NCBI GenBank assembly: GCA_029265995.1
Contig: JAJUFM010000014.1
Coordinates: 1-37,754 of the forward strand
DNA from: Rhodospirillaceae bacterium
GTDB lineage: Bacteria; Pseudomonadota; Alphaproteobacteria; Kiloniellales; DSM-21159
Direction of reading: 5' to 3'
Length of the DNA stretch: 37,754 nt
The translations under genes were made by a program, and so were the position numbers. The notes under the pieces were generated by a model, which searched no databases, had not been told where the DNA came from, and saw nothing but the letters and a program-made list of their open reading frames with translations. Within the stretch, counting starts at the first letter, position 1. Each line of letters opens with the position of its first letter. This document shows positions 19,126 through 20,959 of the stretch, one piece after another.

Positions 19126-19318
19126 GATCCATCTCTCAGCGGCGATCCCGCGCCGCAATTAACCTGCACACGGACCTATGTTCTGTGGCCCAGTGTCGTC
19201 TTGCCCCCGGCTTGGCGCGGTCCGCGGGACCCTTTCCCTGCGGAACGGCATGACCACCTTTACCAGAGGCGGGTCAAGAGGTGTAGTGTGCCGATGGCAA
19301 GGGAGGGTTGAGGCTTTG

Positions 19319-20047
19319 GTGAGGGCCGTGCAGCGGGCGCTGGAAGAGAATGATGCAGAGGTTTGGGTCTTGCGCACCGCTACAATTGCTCTGGAGCGGG
19401 AAGAGGCGCTGGATGCTCTGCTAGATCCGGTCGAACGGGCGCGTGCGGCGCGCTTTGCCTTCGCTCGCGACAGGCGGGACTACCGCGTCGCCCACGGTCT
19501 CCTGCGGCTTCTCCTTTCCGCCGTGGTGCCGCGCGATCCGCGAGACTGGCGCATAAGGGCTGGCGCAGGGGGTAAGCCGGAACTCGTCGAAGGGCAGGCG
19601 GACGGGCTCTTCTTCAATATTTCCCACACCCGCGGCTGTGTCGCCTGCCTTGTTGGTCGCCGCCCGCTGATCGGCGTCGACGTGGAAAGCCGTGAGCGCA
19701 GGACGGCCGCGGATCTGGGGGAACGGCTCTTTGCACCGGCAGAGGTCGCTCTCTTGCGTCATCCGGATGAGCAGGAGCGCTGGGATCGCTTTTTTCGTAT
19801 CTGGACGCTGAAGGAAGCCTATCTCAAGGGCACAGGTTTAGGCCTGCGCATGCCCCTCGACTCCTTTGCTTTCAGCCTCGACCCCCCGCGGGTGCGCTTT
19901 GCGCCCAGCATCGACGACGACCCGACCGCCTGGCACTTCGAGCAGCGGCTGCTGCCCGGCGGCTTTATCGCCGCGGTCAGCCAGCGCGAGCCCGCGGGGC
20001 CACCGCCGTTACGTTGGCGCGTGCTGGATGAGGTCCCTGGCATTTGA
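19319..20047 (+). CDS. 4'-phosphopantetheinyl transferase, Sfp type
   Basis: This enzyme transfers the phosphopantetheine arm of CoA to a serine of acyl or peptidyl carrier proteins. Diagnostic motifs are FFNISHT (residues 98-104), IGVDVES (118-124, metal ligands Asp121 and Glu123) and FRIWTLKEAYLKGTGLGL (159-176, with Glu166 and Lys170). The start is uncertain. GTG 19319 has GAGG five bases upstream and gives 242 residues, typical for the family. In-frame ATGs at 19250 and 19178 would add 23 or 47 residues of unlikely composition. The gene is convergent with a PptH-like hydrolase gene whose product would remove the same group; the stop codons are only about 25 bases apart. Confidence 0.92.
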   Translation: MRAVQRALEENDAEVWVLRTATIALEREEALDALLDPVERARAARFAFARDRRDYRVAHGLLRLLLSAVVPRDPRDWRIRAGAGGKPELVEGQADGLFFNISHTRGCVACLVGRRPLIGVDVESRERRTAADLGERLFAPAEVALLRHPDEQERWDRFFRIWTLKEAYLKGTGLGLRMPLDSFAFSLDPPRVRFAPSIDDDPTAWHFEQRLLPGGFIAAVSQREPAGPPPLRWRVLDEVPGI

Positions 20048-20071
20048 AGAAAGCTGCCCTGCATCCATTGG

Positions 20072-20959
20072 TCAGCGCGCTTCCGCTTTGGCTCCATAGC
20101 CGTGGAAGATAGTCCCCGGCTCCTCGACCTGGGGCAGCGGGCCAGGAAGGATTTCTCGCAGGTAGGGTTTGAGGCCTTCCCCTTGTCGCCATTGCTTAGG
20201 ATAGCCCAGGGAGACTTCCTCAAACCGCGTGCCGTCTCGCCAGTCGGTGCGACGGATGTGCAGGTGGCCGCTAACGCAGGCGAGGGCCCGATAACGCTGA
20301 TGCCAATTCTCCGTCGCCCGCGTGCCGCACCAGGGGGAAAAGCGAGGAATGCGCGGGAGGTAGACGAATTCCTCACGCAGCGGATAGTGGTTCACCAGGA
20401 TCGTGGGCCGGTCCGCAGGCACCTCCTGATCCAGCCGCTGCCGCGTGTGAGATATCCGAGCTGCACACCAGGCCTGTCGACTGGGATAGGGATCCGGCGA
20501 AAGCAGCACTTCATCGGAACAGACCGCGCGCTCCTCGGCCGCCCAGGCCACGACCTCGTCTTGGGGCACGTGATCGGGCCGGAAACTGTAGTCGTAGAGC
20601 AGGAAGAGCGGTGCGATGGTGCAGGTGCCCCCCGCGCCGTGCCATAGCGGATAGGGATCTTCCGGCGTGATGGCCCCGGCGGAACGAGCTACCTCCACCA
20701 TTAGGTCGTATTTGGCCTGCCCCGCTATGGCCGCCTCGCCTTCACGTACGGTCCAGAGTTCATGATTGCCGGGGGTCCAGATCACCTGGGCGAAGCGCTC
20801 TTTCAAGAGCTCGAGTACCTCCCACAGCTGCTCCGGTCGTTCCGCTACATCTCCGGCGACGATCAACCAGTCGTCTGGATGCTCTGCCAGCTCAGCGACC
20901 GCCTGTCGGTTGGTCTCGACCGCAGCGTGCAGGTCGCTGATCGCATAAAGTTTCGACAA
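20072..20959 (-). CDS. Metallophosphoesterase, PptH-like (phosphopantetheinyl hydrolase)
   Basis: The 295-residue product has a complete calcineurin-type di-metal site: Asp9 and His11 (SDLH), Asp37 (GDVAE), Asn65 and His66 (GNHE), His191 (VNHYP), and His232 and His234 (GHLH). Beyond these it has stretches I recognise from the mycobacterial and streptomycete family of PptH (Rv2795c), such as DDWLIVAGDVAE, FLLYDYSF, EVLLSPDPYPSRQAWC and FEEVSLGYPKQW. PptH removes phosphopantetheine from carrier proteins and is encoded beside the PptT transferase. The same pairing with a transferase gene is seen here. Function is inferred from that family and context. Confidence 0.82.
   Translation of the reverse strand: MSKLYAISDLHAAVETNRQAVAELAEHPDDWLIVAGDVAERPEQLWEVLELLKERFAQVIWTPGNHELWTVREGEAAIAGQAKYDLMVEVARSAGAITPEDPYPLWHGAGGTCTIAPLFLLYDYSFRPDHVPQDEVVAWAAEERAVCSDEVLLSPDPYPSRQAWCAARISHTRQRLDQEVPADRPTILVNHYPLREEFVYLPRIPRFSPWCGTRATENWHQRYRALACVSGHLHIRRTDWRDGTRFEEVSLGYPKQWRQGEGLKPYLREILPGPLPQVEEPGTIFHGYGAKAEAR

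Follow-up and report, generated by a model that had tools for sequence, protein, structure and literature searches.

A phosphopantetheinyl transferase gene converges on a metallophosphoesterase gene

Within the window, by which we mean the whole 37,754-nucleotide stretch analysed here, two genes face each other tail to tail between argC and a gene for a dapC-like aminotransferase.

19319–20047, plus strand: phosphopantetheinyl transferase (PPTase) of the Sfp/HetI type (PF01648, PF22624, alignment to Sfp 1qr0)
20048–20071, no strand: intergenic gap of 24 bp, stop codon to stop codon (sequence, terminator scan)
20072–20959, minus strand: PptH-type metallophosphoesterase, predicted holo-carrier-protein phosphopantetheinyl hydrolase (phmmer, AlphaFold, Foldseek, VIA-align, invariant residues)

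The PPTase reading frame is open from an ATG at 19178, with the GTG at 19319 as the likelier start, and ends at 20047. The metallophosphoesterase gene starts from a TTG at 20959—its protein begins MSKLYAISDLH—and stops at 20072. A preliminary description of this DNA had reported a convergent pair separated by about 25 bases; both frames indeed lie at these positions, with 24 bases between their stops. Given this convergence and a gap in which a scan detected no terminator-like hairpin, we rejected both an operon and a shared terminator. Neither an RNA element nor a tRNA insertion site was found in the window.

The window belongs to a 3.17-Mb assembly that is 96.8% complete (G000). The same convergent pair occurs in the nearest relative, the isolate Aquibaculum arenosum CAU 1616 (G001, locus L002), whose PptH is 79% identical to that of the window, and an assembly artefact is thereby excluded.

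The esterase is a PptH-type protein

A profile search assigned the esterase to PF00149 (2.9e-15). Compared by phmmer with all PDB sequences, it matched 6unc, the structure of PptH from M. tuberculosis, with an E-value of 7.6e-88 over residues 4–275; the next match was at 0.18, and no LpxH, nucleotidase or Ap4A hydrolase appeared at E<1. Identity to M. tuberculosis PptH is 51% over the full length. An AlphaFold model (pLDDT 89.7, built from 28 aligned sequences) superimposed on 6unc with a VIA-align Z of 39.5 and an rmsd of 2.1 over 273 residues. Foldseek likewise returned 6unc (2.2e-36, TMq 0.87), with LpxH at a TMq of only 0.35–0.40.

Residues D9, H11, D37, N65, H66, H191, C211, H232 and H234 are invariant in the alignment of the window esterase. 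The last-named cysteine and histidines, C211/H232/H234, correspond to C225/H246/H248 of the M. tuberculosis enzyme; across 112 aligned proteins their conservation rounds to 100%. The window esterase has the binuclear metal site together with the equivalents of these three residues. In M. tuberculosis PptH, H246N is inactive and C225R confers resistance to a PptT inhibitor, C225 lying within hydrogen-bond distance of the metal ligand H248 (PMC8557913). The window esterase is thus a genuine PptH-type protein, neither an LpxH nor a nucleotide hydrolase. This bears out the earlier recognition of a PptH-like esterase with a full metal site, and the check set for it, kinship with LpxH or nucleotide hydrolases, turned up none by E-value or Foldseek.

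Metallophosphoesterases switch substrates easily, and the next-best folds to the model after 6unc were Rv0805 and GpdQ (Z 16.8). If the PptH fold here now served to cleave a small phosphodiester connected with CoA or pantetheine, in CoA degradation or salvage, instead of acting on holo-carrier proteins, the PPTase neighbour would reflect shared CoA metabolism. We consider this improbable: the identity to PptH is high, and 49 columns of the PptH alignment are invariant, the majority at positions other than the metal ligands. Moreover, M. tuberculosis PptH showed no role in CoA salvage (PMC8557913).

E. coli AcpH, the ACP phosphodiesterase, removes phosphopantetheine from holo-ACP, the same reaction as we propose for the window esterase, but is an unrelated HD-type protein. 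Its domain, PF04336, was found neither in the window esterase, a PF00149 protein, nor elsewhere in the window genome, in a search that recovered the E. coli control.

PptH forms a cross-phylum family

The 2021 characterisation of PptH called it ‘unique to mycobacteria’ (PMC8557913). Its occurrence is sparse and patchy: we detected it in 12 of 385 Alphaproteobacteria, in five of 398 genomes of a phylum draw (all five labelled as the same class) and in 15 of 246 genomes of an even draw from Actinomycetota, the PptH-bearing centre genome included. A collection scan added an acidobacterium, Myxococcota, Candidatus Parabeggiatoa and Dictyobacter vulcani. PptH is therefore a cross-phylum family, contradicting the mycobacteria-only statement.

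A maximum-likelihood tree of 65 proteins, unrooted and limited to family members, divided all actinobacterial PptH, including that of M. tuberculosis, from the rest by a branch with 100/99 support. The window protein grouped with that of Aquibaculum (100/91), inside a set of Alphaproteobacteria joined by a single acidobacterium (95/95). Acquisition by transfer had been entertained at the outset; a transfer from actinobacteria finds no support in this tree: the split between actinobacterial and all other PptH argues against actinobacteria as the source, and excludes a recent transfer of the window gene from Actinomycetota. The patchiness of PptH points to losses and to transfers between other lineages.

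Two actinobacterial genomes, G980 (L146/L160) and G1013 (L148/L159), contain two PptH genes each, one with and one without an adjoining PPTase gene. In genome G517 (L134:6747-10060), a second, different metallophosphoesterase frame of 595 aa lies near PptH on the opposite strand.

The partner transferase is of a different class from PptT

The window PPTase matched PF01648 (3e-17) and AASDHPPT_N (PF22624) in profile searches. Its closest solved relative is Sfp (1qr0, 1.9e-17), and it displays the motifs FNISH, VDVE and W-T-LKEAYLKG. HetI was the nearest NCBIfam model, at 1.9e-26 and below the cut-off. With PF01648, an N-terminal pseudo-repeat, a length of at least 220 aa and the VD.E and W..KE...K motifs, the protein classifies as Sfp-type. 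It is also the only PF01648 protein that we found in the window genome.

The window PPTase falls on the Sfp/HetI side and a tested actinobacterial partner on the EntD-type side (4PPT_N, PF17837). In a PPTase tree with long branches, all sampled actinobacterial partners were set apart (100/99) by a branch of 2.3 changes per column. The window had been described as uniting the same two activities as PptH and PptT; the class of the transferase differs, being Sfp/HetI-type here and EntD-type in PptT.

Compared with M. tuberculosis PptH (Rv2795c, 6UNC), which is encoded beside PptT (Rv2794c), the window esterase agrees in full-length sequence, fold, metal site, the equivalents of C225/H246/H248 and an adjoining PPTase gene. 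It differs in belonging to a separate clade (100/99) and in its partner: an Sfp/HetI-class enzyme encoded convergently, in a genome where AcpS was undetected, as opposed to an EntD-class enzyme on the same strand. A Streptomyces sco6673-like PPTase locus similarly has a calcineurin-like phosphoesterase gene beside the PPTase gene, but there the two genes overlap on the same strand and the PPTase is EntD-type; Bunet et al. 2014 recorded this overlapping upstream neighbour, its function then unknown (PMC3909215). A search of open-access papers returned no literature on the pair outside Actinomycetota. New here is the occurrence of a PptH-type enzyme in a lineage from which none had been described, beside a PPTase of a different class.

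PptH and a PPTase are repeatedly neighbours

We ran profile searches on every fetched locus and counted PptH as paired when a PPTase domain lay within 600 bp. Adjoining PPTase genes were present at nine alphaproteobacterial loci (L001, L002, L003, L084-086, L091, L094, L109) and also in Gammaproteobacteria (L007), Myxococcota (L012) and Chloroflexota (L008). The suggestion that the esterase be surveyed for Sfp-type neighbours in proteobacteria thus led to a recurrent arrangement, in two proteobacterial classes and beyond. Gene order varies. Pairs are convergent in the window, A. arenosum, Roseibium, G006, genus g160 (G191, G291) and G155; on the same strand, the PPTase gene lies downstream of PptH in Parabeggiatoa, Dictyobacter and G417, and upstream of it in a myxobacterium and G791. 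In one further genome, G010, PptH and the PPTase occupy two contig ends in an orientation that fits a split convergent pair, and we counted it as paired.

The even Actinomycetota draw had at least one paired copy in 14 of 14 PptH-bearing genomes, leaving the centre genome aside, and 39 of the 69 actinobacterial loci from the collection scan were paired. Outside Actinomycetota, roughly half of the PptH genes have no adjoining PPTase (for instance in SAR116, Nisaea, Niveispirillum, G163, G433 and Citreicoccus). Pairing is therefore non-obligatory. In two streamlined single-contig genomes of 1.5 Mb, G267 and G356 (L105, L106), PptH and the sole Sfp-type PPTase are ~2.7–3 kb apart, and little coding sequence was called between them; in G433, a congeneric genome of 5.6 Mb, the two genes are unlinked and AcpS is also present.

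The genes around the pair change from lineage to lineage: even the sister pair of A. arenosum is flanked by an aldehyde dehydrogenase gene, unlike that of the window, amidase and HTH genes flank the pair in g160, and an RND pump, an MFS transporter or a kinase do so in others. We therefore rejected a conserved wider gene cluster. The varied gene order and unrelated flanks imply that the pair is retained on its own account, and two deeply different PPTase classes, Sfp/HetI-type and, in Actinomycetota, EntD-type, are found beside PptH. That a generic phosphoesterase came to lie beside a PPTase gene by chance could be argued from the many unpaired family members outside Actinomycetota. We give this reading next to no credence: genomes hold one to a few PPTase genes among thousands, and the recurrence of adjacency across at least five phyla or classes, with varying gene order and flanking genes, refutes it. 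As to the small-phosphodiester reading, one paired locus (L104) adjoins a ketopantoate-reductase-like gene, as CoA metabolism would have it, but the partners of PptH in five lineages are PPTases, not CoA-synthesis genes.

The pair is associated with absence of AcpS

No AcpS was found in the window genome, whose PPTase is the single PF01648 match, nor in the genomes of A. arenosum and Roseibium limicola. AcpS (TIGR00516) was detected in 337 of the 372 Alphaproteobacteria drawn; it was absent from six of 11 PptH-bearing genomes versus 29 of 361 others (Fisher 1.5e-4), or, counting genera on the PptH side as a rough correction, from three of seven (p about 0.016). Within the window's family (f1), four of four PptH-bearing genomes are without AcpS (G000, G001, G006, G010), and eight of eight PptH-less genomes have AcpS (G002-G005, G007-G009, G011). 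In genus g160, AcpS is missing from two PptH-bearing species; it is present in a third (G372), for which the draw reported no PptH.

Outside Actinomycetota, 10 of 13 PptH genomes with the pair lacked AcpS, compared with two of nine unpaired ones (p 0.027); this count takes G010 as paired and omits the 3-kb cases as well as unclear genomes. An independent-pairs test of pairing against AcpS absence gave the same direction in ~1.9 of four pairs and the opposite in 0.1, too few for significance. These counts are suggestive of a link between the PptH–PPTase pair and AcpS absence, with relatedness incompletely corrected and draft genomes that may miss a gene. The correlation is further limited in that loss of AcpS is affordable only where an Sfp-type enzyme exists. 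The link is apparently unreported. Pair and AcpS absence coincide in family f1, genus g160, G791, G797, G801 and G806.

Sfp-type enzymes accept acyl-CoAs. The best alternative to a switch keeps the same chemistry: PptH would perform quality control, stripping mis-primed (acyl-phosphopantetheinyl) carriers left by a promiscuous Sfp-type PPTase that serves fatty-acid synthesis without AcpS. The excess of AcpS absence among paired over non-adjacent cases and the contrast within family f1 favour it. Set against it are the actinobacterial relatives, which combine a PptH–PPTase pair with a retained AcpS, and the above limits of the correlation. We regard quality control as possible, with odds clearly against it.

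In SAR116 (locus L004, genome G798), PptH occurs with AcpS as the sole PF01648 protein found, and there it would oppose AcpS.

A putative on/off module for carrier proteins

We propose that the two genes of the window probably constitute an on/off module for carrier proteins, by analogy with the M. tuberculosis system, whose Mn/Fe-dependent PptH strips the phosphopantetheine off AcpM, Pks13 and heterologous FAS and NRPS carriers (PMC8557913). The PPTase would transfer 4'-phosphopantetheine from CoA to the conserved serine of carrier proteins, and the PptH-type enzyme, through its two-metal centre and an activated water, would cut the serine–phosphopantetheine phosphodiester, returning the apo protein. 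We infer that PptH opposes its PPTase neighbour on ACP and on NRPS carriers alike; NRPS modules and small carrier proteins are encoded in the window genome. Since no second PPTase was found in that genome, action on fatty-acid ACP is expected as well. Reversible control of carrier-protein activation, as envisaged from the start, is plausible on this basis.

What triggers removal is a matter of guesswork: CoA shortage, growth arrest, or the clearing of carriers mis-primed by a promiscuous PPTase. Convergent transcription with no shared promoter counts against simple co-expression of the pair in the window genome, and PptH-deficient M. tuberculosis has no phenotype in mice (PMC8557913).

More speculatively, and with perhaps one chance in a few of being right, in AcpS-less bacteria the holo/apo state of all carriers, even of the essential fatty-acid ACP, may be governed by a single Sfp-type PPTase and the adjoining PptH, which would allow the synthesis of lipids and secondary metabolites to be turned down together. 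PptH would then have joined different PPTase classes more than once, an unopposed broad PPTase being costly.

PptH thus emerges as a cross-phylum family repeatedly joined to two PPTase classes and linked, as far as the counts suggest, with AcpS absence. Harmless, cultured hosts in which to ask why cells strip their carrier proteins are at hand in Aquibaculum arenosum, Roseibium limicola and Dictyobacter vulcani. The Dictyobacter vulcani strain of locus L008 has a PPTase, vulcPPT, described in 2025 with an unusually broad carrier range (PMC12391972).
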